DNA of 64,000 nucleotides, taken from assembly GCA_025869365.1 (NCBI GenBank), contig JAOZVV010000018.1:1-64000 (forward strand), read 5' to 3'. This document shows positions 8,998 through 40,927 of the stretch, one piece after another (position 1 is the first letter of the stretch; each line of letters opens with the position of its first letter). This DNA comes from Pseudonocardia sp. (GTDB lineage Bacteria > Actinomycetota > Actinomycetes > Mycobacteriales > Pseudonocardiaceae). The notes beneath the pieces are model-generated. The model made no database searches. It was given only the letters and a program-made list of their open reading frames with translations, and had not been told where the DNA came from. The position numbers and the translations under genes are program-made.

Positions 8998-9612
8998 ATG
9001 GCCGCGCCCTCCACGGACCCGCGGACGGGCGCACCCACCCGTCGCGAGCAGATCCTCGGGGTGGCCGCTCGGCTGTTCGCCAAGCACGGCTACCACGGCG
9101 TGAGCATCACCGACCTCGGCGCGGCCGTCGGGATCAGCGGTCCGGCCCTGTACCGGCACTTCCCGGGCAAGGAGGCCCTGCTCGCGGAGATGCTGGTCCG
9201 GATCAGCGAGGACCTGCTGGCGGGCGGCCGGGCCCGGAGCACGGGCGAGCCCCGCGACGTCCTCGTCGCGCTGGTGGACTTCCAGCTGGACTTCAGCCTG
9301 CGCGAGCCGGAGCTGATCGTGGTGCAGGACCGGGACCTGGACAACCTCCCCGAGGACGCCCGGCGCCGGGTCCGCCAGCTCCAGCGCACCTATGTCGAGA
9401 TCTGGGTGGACACCCTGCGCCGGATCCACCCCGGCCTGTCCGCGGACGCCGCGCGGATCGCGGCGCACGGCACGTTCGGGCTGCTCAACTCGACCCCGCA
9501 CAGCGGCTCGCGGGCGGATCCGGGCGAGGTCGCGGCGCTGCTGCGCCGGATGGCACTCACCGCGCTGGACGGTCTCGGAGCACCGGTGGAGCGCCCGTCG
9601 AACCCCGGGTGA
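8998..9612 (+). CDS. TetR-family regulator of the carboxylase operon
   Basis: 204 residues. The N-terminal helix-turn-helix (about 17-62) contains RREQILGVAARLFAKHGYHGVSITDLGAAVGISGPALYRHFPGKEALL; the rest is the ligand-binding helical domain. The same 18-bp palindrome stands before this gene and twice before the carboxyltransferase gene, so it very likely represses both. The ligand would be an acyl-CoA or keto acid of branched-chain catabolism by analogy with the mycobacterial TetR regulator next to accA1/accD1 (BkaR); that analogy is inference. It is separated from its target operon by the two-component genes. Confidence 0.92.
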   Translation: MAAPSTDPRTGAPTRREQILGVAARLFAKHGYHGVSITDLGAAVGISGPALYRHFPGKEALLAEMLVRISEDLLAGGRARSTGEPRDVLVALVDFQLDFSLREPELIVVQDRDLDNLPEDARRRVRQLQRTYVEIWVDTLRRIHPGLSADAARIAAHGTFGLLNSTPHSGSRADPGEVAALLRRMALTALDGLGAPVERPSNPG

Positions 9613-9725
9613 GGCCCACGAGCCCCCGCGGACGCGGCGCCACCGGGACCGTCACCGCCGGGAACCCGGCCGGCAGCCTGCGGCTCGGGAACTCCCCGCG
9701 GTGCCTGCCCGCGTGGGCCGGCCGC

Positions 9726-12798: not shown

Positions 12799-13560
12799 AT
12801 GTATGCAGCGGAGCGACAGCAGTGGCTGCTCACCCGGACCCGCGAAGCGGGTCGGGTGGACGTGGCCGCCACGGCCGAGGAGCTCGACGTCACGCCCGAG
12901 ACCATCAGGCGGGACCTCGGCACCCTCGAGCGCCAGGGCCTCGTCCGGCGGGTGCACGGCGGCGCCATCCCCGCCGACCGGCTGGACTTCGAGCCCGCCA
13001 TCGGCCAGCGCGACGCGGTCGCCGGTGCGGAGAAGGAGCGGATCGCCAAGGCCGCACTCGCCGAGCTCGAGGGCTGCCTGACCGTCCTGCTCGACGCGGG
13101 CACCACCACCGCCCGGCTCGCCGCGCTGCTCCCGCACGACCGCGAGCTCACCGTCGTCACCAACTCGCTCTCGATCGCCTCGATGCTCGCGACCAGGCCG
13201 AACGTCGTCCTGCGCCTGCTCGGCGGCCGGGTCCGGGGCACCACGATGGCGGCGGTGGACGACTGGGTGGTCGACACGCTCGCCACCCTCACCGTGGACG
13301 TCGCCTTCCTGGGCACCAACGGCTTCTCCCCCGACCGGGGGCTCACGACGCCGGACCCGGCCGAGGCCGCCGCCAAGCGGGCCATGATCGGCGCCGCCCG
13401 GCGCTCGGTCGTCCTCGCCGACGCCGCCAAGTACGGCGCGGACCAGTTCGTCCGCTTCGCCCGGCTGGACCAGGTGGAAGCGGTCGTCACCGACACCGGG
13501 CTCGACGCCGCCGCGGCGGCATCGGTCGAGGCCGCAGGCCCGAGAGTGGTCCGCGCATGA
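12799..13560 (+). CDS. fruR: DeoR-family regulator of the fructose PTS
   Basis: 253 residues. The N-terminal winged helix (about 4-57) has ERQQWLLTRTREAGRVDVAATAEELDVTPETIRRDLGTLERQGLVRRVHGGA, the DeoR signature. The C-terminal sugar-phosphate sensor domain contains LLDAGTTT and the ADAAKYG motif. It probably senses fructose 1-phosphate or another sugar phosphate. Its stop overlaps the fruK start in ATGA, so regulator and enzymes are co-translated. Confidence 0.93.
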   Translation: MYAAERQQWLLTRTREAGRVDVAATAEELDVTPETIRRDLGTLERQGLVRRVHGGAIPADRLDFEPAIGQRDAVAGAEKERIAKAALAELEGCLTVLLDAGTTTARLAALLPHDRELTVVTNSLSIASMLATRPNVVLRLLGGRVRGTTMAAVDDWVVDTLATLTVDVAFLGTNGFSPDRGLTTPDPAEAAAKRAMIGAARRSVVLADAAKYGADQFVRFARLDQVEAVVTDTGLDAAAAASVEAAGPRVVRA

Positions 13561-34934: not shown

Positions 34935-36464
34935 TCAGCGGTACAGGTCGACCACCGCGCGCTTGACCAGCTTGCCCGTCGGCGTGCGGGGCAGCGACTC
35001 GACGAAGTCCACCGTGCGGGGGCTCTTGTAGTGCGCGATCCGGTCCCGGACGAACGCGAGCAGCTCGGCCTCGAGGTCGGGGCTCCCGTCCCGACCCGGC
35101 GCCGGCACGACCACCGCCTTGACCTGTTCGCCCATCTCCTCGTCCGGCACCCCGATCACGGCGATGTCGTGCACCGCGGGGTGCAGGGCGAGGCAGTCCT
35201 CGATCTCCTGCGGGTAGATGTTCACCCCGCCCGAGATGATCATGAAGGACTTCCGGTCCGTGAGGAACAGCCAGCCGTCCTCGTCGACGTAGCCGATGTC
35301 CCCGGTCGTCGTCCAGGTCGGATGGTCCGGGTGCTGCGCGGAGCGGGTCTTCGCCTCGTCCCCGTGGTACCGGAAGGGCACCTCGTCGCGCTCGAAGTAG
35401 ATCGTGCCGATGCCCCCGGGCGGGAGCTCGACACCGTCGTCGTCGCAGATCCGCAGGACGCCGACGGCGGCCTGCCCGACCGAGCCGGGGTGCTCCAGCC
35501 ACTGCGCGGAGCTGATCCGGGTGGAGCCGATGGACTCGGTGGAGCTGTAGTACTCCTCGAGCACCGGGCCCCACCACTCGATCATCGCCCGCTTGACCTC
35601 CACCGGGCAGGGCGCGGCGGCGTGCACCGCGACCTTCAGGCTGGACAGGTCGTAGCGCTCGCGCACCTCCTCGGGCAGCTTGAGCATGCGGACGAACATC
35701 GTCGGCACCCACTGGCTGTGCGTGATCCGGAAGCGCTCGATGTCCGCCAGCGCCTGCTCGGCGTCGAACCGGTCCGCGATGACCAGCGTGCCGCCGAGAA
35801 CGTGGATCATGGCCCCGAACCGCAGCGGGGCGGAGTGGTACTGCGGCGCGGGTGAGTAGTAGACGGTGTCCGGCCCGAACCCGTAGGCCGGCCCGAACGC
35901 CGCGACGACGGTGTTGCCCGCCTCGTCGACGCGACGCTCCGGCAGCGCGGACTCGATCCCCTTGGGACGCCCGGTGGTGCCGGAGGAGTACAGCATGTCC
36001 GCGCCGCACGGCTCCTCGTCCAGCACGCCCGCGGGCTGTGTGGCGAGCGCGGCCTCGTAGTCCTCGTGCCCCTCGACGGCACCGCCGACGGCCAGCCGCC
36101 GCTCCACCTTCGGGGTCAGCGGGACGACCGCCTCCGCCGCCGCGGCGAGGCCGGCGCTCACCACGAGCACCCGCGCCTCGCAGTCGTCGACGATGTAGGC
36201 GATCTCCGGCGGCGACAGGTGGTGGTTGACGGCGGTGACGTAGAGCCCGGAGCGCAGCGCCGCCCAGTAGACCTCGAACACCTCAGGCGAGTTCTCCAGG
36301 ACCATCGCGATGTGGTCCCCGCGGCGCAGTCCGTGGGCCGCGAGCACCCGCGCGAGCTGCGACGACCGGTCGTCGAGCTCGCGGTAGGTGCGGACGCGGC
36401 CGTCTCCCGCCATCACGATCGCGGGCTTGTCCGGCGTGAGGCGGGCGAAGGTACCGGGGTACAT
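34935..36464 (-). CDS. AMP-forming acyl-CoA synthetase (FadD-like)
   Basis: 509 residues of the ANL superfamily. It activates a carboxylic acid to acyl-AMP and then acyl-CoA. Motifs are A3 LYSSGTTGRPKGI, A5-like YYSSTES, A8 TTGDIGYVDEDGWLFLTDRKSFMIISGGVNIYPQEIE and A10 PRTPTGKLVKRAVV with the catalytic Lys. I chose ATG 36464 (MYPGTFARLTPDKPAI), the normal start of this subfamily. An 11-codon frame with GTG 36499 ends in a TGA that overlaps this ATG. The gene lies downstream of the amidohydrolase/DUF59/alcohol dehydrogenase genes and could activate their product. Confidence 0.92.
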   Translation of the reverse strand: MYPGTFARLTPDKPAIVMAGDGRVRTYRELDDRSSQLARVLAAHGLRRGDHIAMVLENSPEVFEVYWAALRSGLYVTAVNHHLSPPEIAYIVDDCEARVLVVSAGLAAAAEAVVPLTPKVERRLAVGGAVEGHEDYEAALATQPAGVLDEEPCGADMLYSSGTTGRPKGIESALPERRVDEAGNTVVAAFGPAYGFGPDTVYYSPAPQYHSAPLRFGAMIHVLGGTLVIADRFDAEQALADIERFRITHSQWVPTMFVRMLKLPEEVRERYDLSSLKVAVHAAAPCPVEVKRAMIEWWGPVLEEYYSSTESIGSTRISSAQWLEHPGSVGQAAVGVLRICDDDGVELPPGGIGTIYFERDEVPFRYHGDEAKTRSAQHPDHPTWTTTGDIGYVDEDGWLFLTDRKSFMIISGGVNIYPQEIEDCLALHPAVHDIAVIGVPDEEMGEQVKAVVVPAPGRDGSPDLEAELLAFVRDRIAHYKSPRTVDFVESLPRTPTGKLVKRAVVDLYR

Positions 36465-36558: not shown

Positions 36559-36597
36559 GGGGTCAGGGCACGGGGTCAGGGCACGGGGTCAGGGCAC
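36559..36597. repeat. Three perfect 13-bp tandem repeats over the end of the alcohol dehydrogenase gene
   Basis: The unit GGGGTCAGGGCAC is repeated exactly at 36559, 36572 and 36585. The third unit contains the stop codon of the minus-strand alcohol dehydrogenase (36589-36591) and its last codons. The other two copies are non-coding duplicates of the gene's end. Confidence 0.9.
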
Positions 36598-37614
36598 GAG
36601 GATCGCCCGGCCGCGCACCCGCCCCGCGTCCAGGTCGTCGATCGCGTCCTGGAACTTCTCCAGCGGGTAGGTGCTGGTGTGCAGGGTGACCAGCCCGCGG
36701 GCGGCGAGCTCCATCAGGTCGCACAGGTCGTTGTAGCTGCCGACCAGGTTCCCGACCACGGTGATCTCGCTGGAGACCAGGTCGATCGTCGGGACGTCGA
36801 GGTTCTCCCCGTAGCCGACGACGTGGTAGTCCCCGGCCTGTGTGAGCATCCGCAGGCCCTCGGCCGTGCTGCCGCCCTCGCCCACGAAGTCGACCACGAC
36901 CTCCGCGCCTTCGCCGCGGGTGAGCTCCAGGACCCGCTCCACCTGCCCGCCGTCGGCGACGATCCCCTCGTCCGCCCCGATCTCCGCGGCCAGCGCCACG
37001 GCGTCCGGGTTGCGGTCCAGCACCACGATCCGGGCGGCGGTGCTCGCCTTGAGCACCTGGATCCCGATGTGTCCCAGCCCGCCCGCGCCGATCACGACGC
37101 AGGTGTCCCGGGGCCCGAGCCGCCGCGCCGCCTTCGCCGCCGCGTGGTAGGCGGTGAGGCCGGCGTCGGCGAGCGCGGCGACGTCCGCGGGTTCCAGCGA
37201 GTCGTCCAGCTTGACCACGCTGCGGGCCGAGGTCCGCAGGTACTCCGCGTACCCACCGTTCGTGTCGATGCCCGGGAACTGCGAGCGGGTGCAGTGCACG
37301 TCGTCGCCGGACCGGCAGGCACGGCACAGCCCGCAGGTGATCAGCGGGTGCACGATCACCTTGTCGCCCTCGGCGACGTTGGTGACGGCGCTGCCGACGG
37401 CCGTCACCCAGCCCGCGTTCTCGTGGCCGATCGTGTACGGCAGCGTGACGCCGGACTTCTGCTCCCACTGACCTTCGAGGATGTGCAGGTCCGTCCGGCA
37501 CACCCCCGCGCCGCCGATCCGCACGATCACGTCGTGCGGCTCGACGACCGTCGGCACGGGGAGCTCGGTCAGCTCCAGGTTCCGGTGGTAGCCGACGACC
37601 TGCACGGCCCTCAC
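36589..37614 (-). CDS. Zinc-dependent alcohol dehydrogenase of the propane/acetone monooxygenase-associated type
   Basis: 341 residues, medium-chain dehydrogenase. Catalytic-zinc ligands are in GVCRTDLHILEGQW and TIGHENAGW, the structural-zinc site in CGLCRACRSGDDVHC, and the NAD site in VVIGAGGLGHIGIQVLK followed by an acidic residue (VLDRN), suggesting NAD. Its sequence closely follows the alcohol dehydrogenases encoded in mimABCD/prmABCD clusters, which oxidise the alcohol made by the monooxygenase. The GTG start overlaps the DUF59 gene stop by 4 nt. Its 3' end lies in a 13-bp triplication. Confidence 0.92.
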   Translation of the reverse strand: MRAVQVVGYHRNLELTELPVPTVVEPHDVIVRIGGAGVCRTDLHILEGQWEQKSGVTLPYTIGHENAGWVTAVGSAVTNVAEGDKVIVHPLITCGLCRACRSGDDVHCTRSQFPGIDTNGGYAEYLRTSARSVVKLDDSLEPADVAALADAGLTAYHAAAKAARRLGPRDTCVVIGAGGLGHIGIQVLKASTAARIVVLDRNPDAVALAAEIGADEGIVADGGQVERVLELTRGEGAEVVVDFVGEGGSTAEGLRMLTQAGDYHVVGYGENLDVPTIDLVSSEITVVGNLVGSYNDLCDLMELAARGLVTLHTSTYPLEKFQDAIDDLDAGRVRGRAILVP

Positions 37615-38324
37615 GAGGCGGCTTCCTTCATGACGGGGTCTCCTCCACGGGACGGCTCGTCGGGGTAGCGGGTGGCCAGCAGGCCGCGGCAGAAATGCGC
37701 GTTGCCGTCGATCGAGATGCGGGTGGCGCGGGCCATCCGCAGCCGCAGCGGGACCTCCTCGGCCCGGTAGGTCGTGCCCGCGTGGTCGACGAGCACCGGG
37801 AGCCCGGGCCCGGCGCCCAGCCCGATCGCCGCCCGACGGCGGAGCAGGGCCCGGGTGGCGTCGTCGTCCGGGAGATCGCCGAGGGTGACGTCGCCCAGGT
37901 CCGCCTCGGCGAGCCCGGCGCGGAGCATCCGGGTCAGCACCCGTTCCATCGCCGCCGTGTGGGCCTTGCGGCGGAAGGTCTCCCGCAGCCCGTCGAGGCT
38001 GTCCTCCGCCTCGTGGGCGAAGGTGCCGCGGTAGCCGGCGTCGGCGGCCAGGCCCCGGTTGATCAGCTCGGAGTCGTGGTGGTCGTCCAGCTCGACGACC
38101 ACCTCACGGGTCCACGGGAGCGCGACGAGCGCGTCCTTGCTGTCGGAGGCCATGAGGTAGGCGAAGTTCGGCGAGCAGAAGCTGGTCGGCAGCCGCAGGT
38201 GCACGGTGACCCGGCCGCCGTCGACGTCGAGGGACCGCACGAAACCGAGCTCGGTGATCGGCTCGTCCAGCTCGGGGTCGATCACGGCGTCCAGCGCGGC
38301 CAGGGCCTGCTCACGGCTCCCCAT
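37611..38324 (-). CDS. DUF59 (MIP18/PaaD-like) protein of the monooxygenase accessory set
   Basis: 237 residues. The N-terminal 90 residues are the MIP18/DUF59 fold (ALAALDAVIDPELDEPITELGFVRSLDVDGGRVTVHLRLPTSFCSPNFAYLM), with the Cys of SFCSPN conserved as in iron-sulfur assembly proteins. The C-terminal 140 residues are family-specific and contain two further Cys-poor helical regions. A homologue always accompanies the amidohydrolase and alcohol dehydrogenase in propane/acetone monooxygenase clusters, where it may help metal-centre assembly. It is coupled on both sides: TGATG with the amidohydrolase, GTGA with the dehydrogenase. Confidence 0.85.
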   Translation of the reverse strand: MGSREQALAALDAVIDPELDEPITELGFVRSLDVDGGRVTVHLRLPTSFCSPNFAYLMASDSKDALVALPWTREVVVELDDHHDSELINRGLAADAGYRGTFAHEAEDSLDGLRETFRRKAHTAAMERVLTRMLRAGLAEADLGDVTLGDLPDDDATRALLRRRAAIGLGAGPGLPVLVDHAGTTYRAEEVPLRLRMARATRISIDGNAHFCRGLLATRYPDEPSRGGDPVMKEAAS

Positions 38325-39337
38325 CAGGCCACCGCCGCGGCCTGCGGCTCCTCGCGCGGGAGCTGCAGCTCGGCGGGGACCGGGATGTCGTACATCGCGG
38401 CGGCGTTGAGGCCGAGGATCTTCTTCTTCTGCTGGGTGGTCAGCGGCGCGTACTCGGAGAGCTCCTCGGGGATCTGGAAGTCCACGAAGCGCTCGACGAG
38501 CCAGCGCGGGGTCCAGATCGCGTAGTCGCTGGAGAACTGGATCCGGTCCTCGCCGATCCAGTACAGCAGCTCGCCGATGATCTGGCCGAAGTACTTGGGC
38601 CGGGTGTGGATGAACGGCATCGCGACCGCGAGCCCGGCGTGCACGTTGGGTTCCTGGGTGGCGATCCAGCAGAAGTCCTCGAGGCGCGGTAGCCCGCAGT
38701 GCTCGACGACGAAGTTGAGGTCGGTGAAGTCGGTGGCGACCTTGTCGACGTCGGCGACGTCGAAGGCGTCGCGGTCGAGCGGGCGGATGGTGGGGCCCTT
38801 GTGGATGTGGATGTTCTTGATGCCCAGTTCCTGGGCGGCCTCGAGGTAGCGGTAGGACCAGATGTCGTCGAGTTTCCAGCCGCGGGAGTCCCCGTGCCAC
38901 TCCGCGGTGTAGAGCTTGGCGCCCTTGAGGTCGAAGCGTTTCGCGTCCTCGCGCAGTTGCTTGAGGCCCTGCTCGCCGAAGCGGGGGTCCCAGTTGTGGT
39001 TGTAGGTCAGCTTGTCGGGGTGGGCCTGGGCGAGGGCGAAGGCCTCCTCGGTCTGGCCGAACCCGTTGAGGTAGAACTCGCCGAGCGCGGCCGGTTGGAA
39101 GATCGCGTGGTCGACGTGGCCCTCGTCGAAGATGTCCTTCATCAGCCGGTCCCCGCCCTGGTAGAGGTAGTCCTCGTAGGACCAGACCTCGGACTCGGGG
39201 CTGAGGTTGCGGTGGTAGTCGTAGAAGCAGTCGATGAACTGCTTGCCGTGGATGTTGCGCAGGTTCTGCGGCCGCGCGTCCCACAGGGCGATGTGGGCAT
39301 CGACGATGAAGTAGTTCTCGTCGTCCTTCGAATACAT
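38324..39337 (-). CDS. Amidohydrolase-2 family protein of the monooxygenase accessory set
   Basis: 337 residues, TIM-barrel amidohydrolase. The stretches IKNIHIHKGPTIRPLDRDAFDVADVD, LNFVVEHCGLPRLEDFCWIATQEPNVHAGL, and GEDRIQFSSDYAIWTPRW are nearly those of the amidohydrolases encoded beside mimABCD/prmABCD. The first metal motif, normally DxHxH, reads VDAHIALWD with Ala17 in place of the second His, which may change or abolish metal binding. It is first in a minus-strand operon with a ribosome binding site AAGGGAG. In the known clusters its exact function is unresolved. Confidence 0.88.
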   Translation of the reverse strand: MYSKDDENYFIVDAHIALWDARPQNLRNIHGKQFIDCFYDYHRNLSPESEVWSYEDYLYQGGDRLMKDIFDEGHVDHAIFQPAALGEFYLNGFGQTEEAFALAQAHPDKLTYNHNWDPRFGEQGLKQLREDAKRFDLKGAKLYTAEWHGDSRGWKLDDIWSYRYLEAAQELGIKNIHIHKGPTIRPLDRDAFDVADVDKVATDFTDLNFVVEHCGLPRLEDFCWIATQEPNVHAGLAVAMPFIHTRPKYFGQIIGELLYWIGEDRIQFSSDYAIWTPRWLVERFVDFQIPEELSEYAPLTTQQKKKILGLNAAAMYDIPVPAELQLPREEPQAAAVA

Positions 39338-39505
39338 GAGGGCTCCCTTGCGTGGCGGTCGTCGGCACGTCGTGTCCGGCGGAGACGCTAGGCAGCGCGC
39401 GAGCCGCGCGGGGACGATCAGGGTCTCAACCTGAGACGCGGGTCTCCCCAGCTCACGCGGCTCCTGTGTCAGAGTCGGGTCACGAGCGCTCGAGGAGGTG
39501 CGCAG

Positions 39506-40927
39506 ATGGACGAGCTCCAGCGAACCGGGGTCGCGACGCCGCGGCTCTCCGCGTCCTGGCGCCGCAGCGAGAGCTACGGGATCCCGCTGGACACGATCAA
39601 CCCGGCGTTCAGCGGCGGCGTCGACGACCAGTCCCTGTTCTACGAGTGCGGCCAGGAGGTCCTGCGCGGGCTGCGGGACACCCTCGCCGGCGAACCCGTC
39701 AGCCTCATGCTCACCGATCACGACGGCCTCGTCCTGAGCCGGGTGTGCGACGAGGACGCGCTGGTCAAGGCCCTGGACCGCACCTACCTCGCCCCCGGCT
39801 TCGCCTTCTCCGAGCGCGAGGTCGGCACCACCGGCCTCGGCCTCGCGCTGGCGGACCGCACCGCGTCCCTCGTCCGCGGCGACGAGCACTACTGCACCGG
39901 CCTGTGGGGCTACACCTGCGCCGCGGTGCCGGTGATGGACCCCGTGCACGGACGGTTGCTCGGCAGCGTCAACCTCACGACCTGGTCGCAGAAGTCCGAC
40001 GGCCTGCTGCTCGCCCTCGCGCAGATGGCGGCCGGGCACACCTCGGCGCTGATGCTGGCGCGCGGGCGGGGCGCCGAGCCACGCCCGACCGCCCGCGGCG
40101 AGGTGTTCCGGGTCTTCACCGCGCCCGGCGAACCGGCGCCGCCACCGGAGCTCGGCGGCCCGTGGGAGAGCGCACTGGCCGAGGTCGTGGAGGCGTTGCG
40201 CGCCGAGCACGCCGTCTGCGTCGTCGGGGAGCCCGGCGCCGGCAAGGCCGCGCTGCTGGCCACCGCCCTGCGCCGGGTGCGGCGGGAGCACCGCATCCTC
40301 AACGCCCGCCCCCCGGCCCCGAGCGACGCGGAGTCCTGGCTCGCGCTCTGGACCCCCGAGCTCGCCAAGGAACGCACCAGCGTCATCGCCTGCGGGGTGG
40401 ACACGCTGCCGTCCTGGGCCGCCACCGAGCTCGCGGAGATCGTCACCGCGGCCCCGCACGCGTCGCTCTCGGTCACCGCCGCCGAGGCCGGGGCGATCCC
40501 GGAACCGCTCGCCCGGCTCGTCGACGTCGTGGTGGAGGTGGCGCCGCTGCGTCAGCGCCCGGACGACGTCCTCCCGCTCGCCGAGCACCTCGGCCGCCGG
40601 GCCCGGGGGCGCGCGGTCCGGTTCACCCCCGCGGCGGTCAGGGCGATGCGCAGCTACGCCTGGCCGGGCAACGTCGAACAGCTCCGCCGCGTCGTCCGGG
40701 AGGCCGTGACCAGGAGCGACGTGATCGACGCCAGGCACCTCGCCCCCGAGGTGCTGTGCGGCCCGACGCACACCCTGACCCGGCTCGAGGTGCTCGAACG
40801 GGACGAGATCGCCCGCTGCCTCGCCGCACCGGGCATGACCGTCACCCGGGCCGCGGAGATCCTGGGCGCGAGCCGGGCCACGCTCTACCGCAAGATCGAC
40901 CGCTACGGGATCCCGCTGCCGCAGTAG
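39506..40927 (+). CDS. GAF-Fis transcriptional activator (MimR/AcoR-like) with degenerate AAA domain
   Basis: 473 residues. The N-terminal GAF-type sensor region (about 40-190) includes FSEREVGTTGLGLALADRTASLVRGDEHYCTGLWGYTCAAVPV, typical of AcoR/MimR proteins. The central ATPase-like domain keeps a Walker A (GEPGAGKA, Lys247) but is shortened and lacks the GAFTGA loop that contacts sigma-54. The C terminus has LRQRPDDVLPLAEHL, YAWPGNVEQLRRVV and a Fis-type HTH (VTRAAEILGASRATLYRKIDRYGI). It is divergent from the amidohydrolase operon across 168 nt and probably activates it. GAGGAGG ribosome binding site. Confidence 0.9.
   Translation: MDELQRTGVATPRLSASWRRSESYGIPLDTINPAFSGGVDDQSLFYECGQEVLRGLRDTLAGEPVSLMLTDHDGLVLSRVCDEDALVKALDRTYLAPGFAFSEREVGTTGLGLALADRTASLVRGDEHYCTGLWGYTCAAVPVMDPVHGRLLGSVNLTTWSQKSDGLLLALAQMAAGHTSALMLARGRGAEPRPTARGEVFRVFTAPGEPAPPPELGGPWESALAEVVEALRAEHAVCVVGEPGAGKAALLATALRRVRREHRILNARPPAPSDAESWLALWTPELAKERTSVIACGVDTLPSWAATELAEIVTAAPHASLSVTAAEAGAIPEPLARLVDVVVEVAPLRQRPDDVLPLAEHLGRRARGRAVRFTPAAVRAMRSYAWPGNVEQLRRVVREAVTRSDVIDARHLAPEVLCGPTHTLTRLEVLERDEIARCLAAPGMTVTRAAEILGASRATLYRKIDRYGIPLPQ

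Follow-up and report, generated by a model that had tools for sequence, protein, structure and literature searches.

Gene content of the locus

The window analysed here, a stretch of 64,000 nucleotides from a Pseudonocardia sp. draft genome (5.27 Mb, 200 contigs, 90.2% complete), carries on its minus strand a three-gene operon resembling the accessory genes of propane/acetone monooxygenase (mim/prm) clusters. The genes encode, in this order, an amidohydrolase (38324-39337; Pfam Amidohydro_2, PF04909, E = 1.3e-48), a DUF59/FeS_assembly_P protein (37611-38324; PF01883, E = 1.2e-17) and a Zn-dependent medium-chain alcohol dehydrogenase (36589-37614; PF08240 and PF00107). Neighbouring genes of the trio overlap by 1 nt (amidohydrolase/DUF59) and 4 nt (DUF59/dehydrogenase, the latter with a GTG start). 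Exactly 168 nt separate the amidohydrolase gene from a divergent plus-strand gene (39506-40927) for a GAF-Fis activator of a short subfamily (Pfam GAF, AAA_lid_14 and HTH_8). The promoter region shared by the two contains the palindrome GTCTCANNNTGAGAC (GTCTCA-NNN-TGAGAC; 39423-39437, no strand), recognised as an operator by the conservation of the exact site, and 32 nt downstream of it a probable −10 element, TAGCGT (39385-39390, minus strand), with a presumed promoter role.

Pfam matches and coordinates bear out the initial annotation, which had described the tightly coupled trio in mim/prm order, the divergent GAF-Fis activator and the 168-nt gap without an oxygenase gene. Its remark that an acyl-CoA ligase rather than GroEL follows the dehydrogenase was likewise accurate: a FadD4-like AMP-binding acyl-CoA ligase gene (34935-36464, minus strand; NCBIfam/Pfam), probably not a module member, starts 124 nt past the dehydrogenase gene, and mimA, mimB, mimC and GroEL had no match in window positions 28001-50000. 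The span it gave, 38324-40927, takes in the amidohydrolase and activator genes and leaves the DUF59 and dehydrogenase genes just outside (36589-38324). Canonical clusters for comparison were chosen for an amidohydrolase near matches to PF02332, the family of monooxygenase alpha and beta subunits. Like the complete cluster at L148 (activator, then mimA, mimB, mimC, amidohydrolase, DUF59, dehydrogenase and GroEL; mimD was not searched separately), the window has the amidohydrolase-DUF59-dehydrogenase order; it also has a divergent GAF-Fis activator and, as judged from sequence, a candidate GTCTCANNNTGAGAC site in the promoter. It has neither mimA-type alpha and mimC-type beta genes at the locus nor a dedicated downstream GroEL (MimG). 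The published gene lists, as far as their available text goes, name a Fis regulator and an ABM gene as further members (PMC4428276; PMC5445863). Measured against L148 and these lists, the module is a mim/prm cluster minus oxygenase and chaperonin.

The amidohydrolase combines its PF04909 match with a predicted TIM-barrel fold (pLDDT, the predicted local distance difference test, 91.5), and its strand-1 metal motif reads HxA instead of HxH. HxA is found in 91 of 120 proteins compared (window included) and HxH in the other 29. All 83 amidohydrolases with a window-type activator within 3 kb are HxA; the other HxA cases are three inside or beside monooxygenase clusters (L043, L054 and L067) and five more. 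The remaining expected ligands, H15, H177, H213 and D271, are invariant (120/120). These metal-binding assignments, the HxH motif included, are carried over by us from the superfamily and taken to hold here. A histidine at position 114 is present in 91/91 HxA proteins and in 3/29 HxH proteins; as these three form the sister group L146-L148, a gain of His114 before the loss of HxH is suggested. Among the 50 Foldseek matches listed, the amidohydrolase model matched amidohydrolase_2 decarboxylases and hydratases at 12-18% identity, and a sequence search of the PDB at E ≤ 0.001 gave no match; naming a reaction from these fold matches was abandoned because they are too distant.

In the DUF59 protein, Cys50 is invariant in 39 of 39 aligned sequences, and an extra C-terminal part of ∼150 residues is predicted to be mostly helical. 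Foldseek at E ≤ 0.001 returned DUF59-type structures only, with no convincing PDB match for the C-terminal part. The nearest solved chain to the dehydrogenase is 1h2b, followed by alcohol dehydrogenases that include the secondary ADH-A of Rhodococcus ruber (2xaa), relatives that suggest a possible role as a secondary-alcohol dehydrogenase. The activator is MimR-like, as the initial annotation had it, but shorter (473 aa versus 596 and 627 aa in two canonical ones). It also matches HTH_23 and AAA_16; the sigma-54 interaction domain PF00158 gave no match at E ≤ 0.001, and NCBIfam sigma-54 regulator models scored far below cut-off.

Conservation, operator and descent

A genome-collection scan returned 434 encoded amidohydrolase relatives, of which the best 80 by identity (79-89%) were examined with their loci; genera named among them include Pseudonocardia, Amycolatopsis, Mycolicibacterium, Nocardioides, Streptomyces, Kribbella and Herbiconiux. 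The counts are of loci, not of independent events (the same genome can stand under G and L handles, as with L016/L181, L068/L183 and G005/G163), and some loci end at contig edges, which explains the gene absences at L012, L036, L071 and L083. The DUF59 gene lies next to the amidohydrolase gene in 79 of the 80 loci and the dehydrogenase gene in 74; an activator gene adjoins in 72, divergently in 71, and an ABM gene is present in 36. No oxygenase gene was detected in the fetched flanks of 75 loci, the other five (L031, L043, L054, L067 and L081) having mimA/mimC matches within the fetched flank. GroEL matches were found in these same five loci and also in Kribbella L052 and L074, where the match is unchecked. 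Clustering of open reading frames (22 query loci, threshold ≥ 12 loci) revealed no further conserved neighbour beyond the module, ABM, dehydrogenase-relative matches and opposite-strand shadows. Since the same order recurs across many actinobacterial genera, the arrangement is not due to chance, and the oxygenase-free operon is a widespread, separately controlled bacterial operon rather than a damaged remnant.

Some loci show variations of their own. At L067 a mimABC-DUF59-GroEL cluster is divergent from the module and occupies the activator's usual place; module and monooxygenase cluster are also close together in L081, L031, L152 and L153. In Nocardioides L027 the dehydrogenase and ABM genes are separated by an additional small reading frame that resembles a membrane-protein gene (12915-13440), and several relatives have a similar gap at this place.

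Across the 80 divergent intergenic regions (the window and 79 fetched loci, some of them near-duplicates), 76 contain the exact GTCTCANNNTGAGAC and the remaining four contain it with 1-2 mismatches; TA[GC]CGT follows the site after 32-33 nt in 43 of the 76. The operator also occurs upstream of mimA, exactly in 11 of 19 monooxygenase clusters and in 16 if one mismatch is allowed; it was not found before mimA in L149, L161 and L168, and L154 has no upstream sequence. Ten fetched loci of a different order, dehydrogenase-amidohydrolase-DUF59, had no exact operator and one single-mismatch site (L175). The genome of the window has six sites versus none for a reversed control pattern, and in a sample of 100 genomes of the bacterial family the operator occurs in 38 versus three for the control. 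Conserved palindromes at prmA are mentioned in the accessible text of PMC4428276, which does not spell out their letters.

Elsewhere in the same genome, an exact site lies on the window's contig past the window end (C18:73819-73833; L221 10820), between a gene for a short-chain dehydrogenase/reductase (SDR) and a short gene, and further sites lie at C75:20800 and C114:7740. At L225 (contig C128, 128-5123) an SDR gene lies on one side of GTCTCANNNTGAGAC and an alpha/beta hydrolase + luciferase-like pair on the other, followed downstream by a further MimR-like GAF-Fis gene; this may be one more operon belonging to that activator family. The operator can be used to search for operons that may be under the control of MimR-type activators.

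Kinship of the window genes with mim/prm accessory genes, an assumption of the initial annotation, is supported by identities and trees. The amidohydrolase shares 71-84% identity with its counterparts at five monooxygenase-linked loci (L043, 83%; L054, 84%; L146, 73%; L147, 75%; L148, 71%) and 52-66% with most other aligned monooxygenase-linked ones. The amidohydrolase tree has 67 rows, labelled by distance rules except for L081, which was labelled by hand. In it, the window belongs to a clade of 38 rows (support 100/97) comprising 34 module-type rows, three monooxygenase-linked ones (L043, L054 and L067) and L080, which has no detected activator and was labelled accordingly as oxygenase-free without activator. 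This clade joins the monooxygenase-linked L146-L148 (100/98) and then L149 (100/99), so that it nests among linked sequences. In the dehydrogenase tree, 33 of 34 module rows among those listed fall into a 39-row group (100/99) together with five rows linked to a monooxygenase; outside it is L085, whose dehydrogenase gene lies on the far side of the activator. The DUF59 tree (55 rows, quick method) unites the 22 module rows, L146-L148 and the two L067 genes (support 99), without resolution inside the group. Oxygenase-free rows of other types (13, including L080) are scattered over the amidohydrolase tree and force at least five changes in it; this scatter suggests that trio and oxygenase came apart repeatedly.

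Monooxygenase genes in the genus and in other carriers

The initial annotation had allowed that the oxygenase might be elsewhere in the genome and proposed a search for mimA/prmA homologues. PF02332 had no match in the 5.27 Mb draft. The same search matched 35 of 100 genomes of the family sample, 58 of 62 of the genus and none of 14 named control genomes; its matches in the family and genus indicate that it is able to find these proteins. The conclusion that the genome has no monooxygenase was nevertheless dropped once the operator search uncovered the 5′ end of a mimA gene. Contig C123 (6846 nt) begins inside mimA, its first 71 nt holding the first 23 codons on the minus strand, and after the mimA start come an operator and a MimR-type gene. 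This contig end matches the mimA region of the same-genus genome G050 at 93 of 97 nt and that of G082 at 110 of 127 nt. The monooxygenase probably lies in the assembly gap beyond the end of C123, and a location elsewhere, as the initial annotation had it, is supported for this genome.

The clusters of G050 and G082 contain mimA, mimB, mimC and GroEL, without a DUF59 or dehydrogenase match and with amidohydrolase similarity of just 23-25%. At L166 of G050 (9037-9706) the DUF59 match is in two adjoining pieces, possibly through a frameshift or a sequencing error. In the genus, 13 of 62 mimA-type loci have an amidohydrolase gene within 12 kb (6 of 22 where the genome has ten contigs or fewer); 'mimA-type' denotes a PF02332 alpha match of ∼187-206 bits by score alone, so that a few may be other types, and linkage counts are lower bounds owing to contig ends. 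Of the 45 Pseudonocardia genomes whose mimA-type locus is unlinked, 41 have an unlinked relative of the amidohydrolase, in most cases of a 53-66% type, and the window's own type is present in 20 of the 62 genomes of the genus. With few mimA-type loci linked yet unlinked relatives common, the split is usual in Pseudonocardia. The window's genome has a second amidohydrolase relative at C53:1-1234 (L005; 49% identity over 47 residues, HxH), preceded by a dehydrogenase gene and cut by the contig end. It appears to be the start of a locus of the dehydrogenase-amidohydrolase-DUF59 type common in the genus, which makes the window module one of two candidate partners of the monooxygenase.

We searched 50 carrier genomes of our own choice from the best 80, mostly isolates outside Pseudonocardia and including L043 and L054, whose amidohydrolase lies inside a monooxygenase cluster. 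PF02332 was present in 20 and not found in 30. Twenty-seven of these 30 have the exact operator, 21 once and six twice, and in 25 of the 27 fetched loci it lies between activator and amidohydrolase genes. In L275 it is at the activator's far end and in L274 away from the module; the other site of each of these genomes is at the module by coordinates. The suggestion of the initial annotation that the accessory module does a job on its own is therefore supported for these carriers. In the family sample, nine of 20 module carriers lack PF02332, one being the window's own genome and another (G012) having a remnant only. Association with PF02332 is weak (11 of 20 carriers, or 12 with the C123 fragment, versus 24 of 80 others; kinship uncorrected). 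Overall, the observation in the initial annotation was confirmed and its interpretation partly supported.

Proposed function and comparison with known systems

The conserved order, the module's own activator, the operator shared with monooxygenase promoters and the tree nesting, together with the changed amidohydrolase metal motif and the presence in genomes without a PF02332 oxygenase, lead us to favour, with modest confidence, a stand-alone operon derived from mim/prm accessory genes, in which the alcohol-processing part was kept and the oxygenase and dedicated GroEL were left out. In this proposal, a small alcohol or ketone would bind the GAF domain of the activator, which would bind GTCTCANNNTGAGAC and switch on the three genes. 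The dehydrogenase would interconvert a short-chain secondary alcohol (or hydroxyketone) and its ketone, the DUF59 partner may help the amidohydrolase into its metal-bound form, and the amidohydrolase would perform a further step on the dehydrogenase product. In the organism of the window the operon probably works beside the monooxygenase whose mimA starts at the end of C123. Where a genome has no oxygenase of this kind, the substrates of the operon would be alcohols or ketones of different origin. The module thus most likely serves to handle alcohols or ketones, in company with a monooxygenase if the genome encodes one and otherwise by itself. A more far-reaching version, to which we give rather less than even chances, would see a widespread one-operon actinobacterial regulon that has become independent of the monooxygenase, whose amidohydrolase gained the strand-3 histidine (114), then lost the HxH ligand (17) and so acquired a new active site for a new short alcohol/ketone step.

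Several observations weigh against the stand-alone operon. The tree roots are midpoints, and the trees disagree: L043 and L054 group with the module by their amidohydrolases and apart from it by their DUF59 genes, a conflict that makes these two clusters look mosaic. In the window's genome the operator also stands beside an SDR/alpha-beta hydrolase operon with its own GAF-Fis gene. Because other GAF-Fis operons carry the site, it belongs to a family of activators; its value as proof of co-regulation of module and monooxygenase is weakened, and we can only infer such co-regulation. The monooxygenase of the window's genome is deduced from 23 codons. The carriers were searched for PF02332 alone, not for P450, AlkB, copper or Baeyer-Villiger oxygenases, and the completeness of the 50 genomes is not reported. 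Database, structure and literature matches name no reaction for the amidohydrolase or the DUF59 protein, so that substrate and inducer are guesses. Finally, in the other genera of the family sample an amidohydrolase lies within 12 kb of 27 of 31 mimA-type loci, and the ordinary partner of the trio there is the oxygenase.

This last point also speaks for the strongest rival, that amidohydrolase and DUF59 protein are maturation factors that load metal into, or repair, the di-iron oxygenase, here in trans. Because of this tight linkage outside the genus, our confidence in the stand-alone operon was lowered slightly and that in maturation raised slightly. DUF59 proteins of other systems act in Fe-S or metal assembly, as is generally known of the family, to which the PF01883 match assigns the protein here, and most Pseudonocardia genomes with an unlinked mimA-type locus retain an unlinked amidohydrolase relative (see above). 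However, the 30 carriers without PF02332 have no such oxygenase to mature, and in split clusters (L226, L227 and Mycobacterium sp. AT1) it is GroEL, cited as a maturation factor in the part of PMC6849523 available, that remains next to the oxygenase, with the trio in another place. Abundance argues the same way. In the proteome of A. chiangmaiensis (genus expanded here to Actinomycetospora) the Mim-cluster amidohydrolase accounts for 3.2%, Adh1 for 6.1%, MimA for 1.8% and MimC for 3.8%, the cluster being strongly induced on 2-hydroxyisobutyrate and on acetone, according to the accessible sections of PMC7176365. The same sections report a second Adh1-related dehydrogenase, WP_018331648.1, induced with the Mim cluster, which could not be placed in a locus (PMC7176365). 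An amidohydrolase as abundant as hydroxylase subunits, in one proteome seen through these sections, is high for a helper and would favour a catabolic enzyme. We regard the maturation role as unlikely.

A link to the neighbouring ligase, which the initial annotation proposed as the recipient of an acid made by the module for activation to a CoA ester, did not hold up. The ligase gene is close and on the same strand, but one of the 80 loci (L021) has a similar ligase in the 4.5 kb downstream, on the opposite strand. Eight Pseudonocardia loci (L007-L013 and L015) had none in their fetched flanks, some of which are truncated; we consider this link very improbable. Weaker still is deletion of the oxygenase genes here in a recent ancestor with the remainder a relic, which accords with the gene content of a canonical cluster minus oxygenase and GroEL and is hardly credible when 75 of the 80 nearest loci, spread over many genera, are oxygenase-free too, with operator and distinct activator, so that the oxygenase-free order is the conserved one.

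The cited papers, in the portions available, leave the roles of amidohydrolase and DUF59 protein in propane/acetone monooxygenase clusters unassigned, and we found no paper in the open-access literature searched on expression of an oxygenase-free module. Strains without PF02332 that keep their own activator and operator offer a way to ask what the two proteins do apart from the oxygenase, and the split shows that oxygenase-centred annotation can miss these genes.

Among known systems are the structural matches of the amidohydrolase, LigW, LigJ, LigY and 2,6-dihydroxybenzoate decarboxylase (Foldseek). The predicted TIM-barrel keeps the strand-5 and strand-6 histidines and the strand-8 aspartate, which we take to be ligands; unlike these decarboxylases and hydratases, to which it is 12-18% identical, the window protein lacks the second histidine of the first motif. 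The dehydrogenase-amidohydrolase-DUF59 loci (L162-L165, L170 and L172-L176) have the same three families with no oxygenase beside them, but differ in gene order, retain HxH and had no exact operator in the ten fetched. A split prm system was described in Mycobacterium sp. AT1, where amidohydrolase, unknown protein and dehydrogenase genes lie apart from prmABCD-GroEL (2017; PMC6849523, in the text available). AT1 (locus L032) carries the window's module type, yet it is one oxygenase-bearing strain, and that text mentions neither activator, operator, oxygenase-free carriers nor a changed metal motif. Another closely related system is the prm/mim propane (acetone/phenol) monooxygenase cluster of soluble di-iron monooxygenase (SDIMO) group 5, for example MSMEG_1970-1979 (PMC5445863 and PMC4428276, as excerpted). 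While the module differs from it in having no mimABCD or GroEL at the locus, a shorter activator and an HxA rather than HxH amidohydrolase, the two have in common a Fis-type activator, the order of amidohydrolase, DUF59-type and dehydrogenase genes, the ABM gene (in 36 of the 80 module relatives) and the same operator in most mimA promoters examined.

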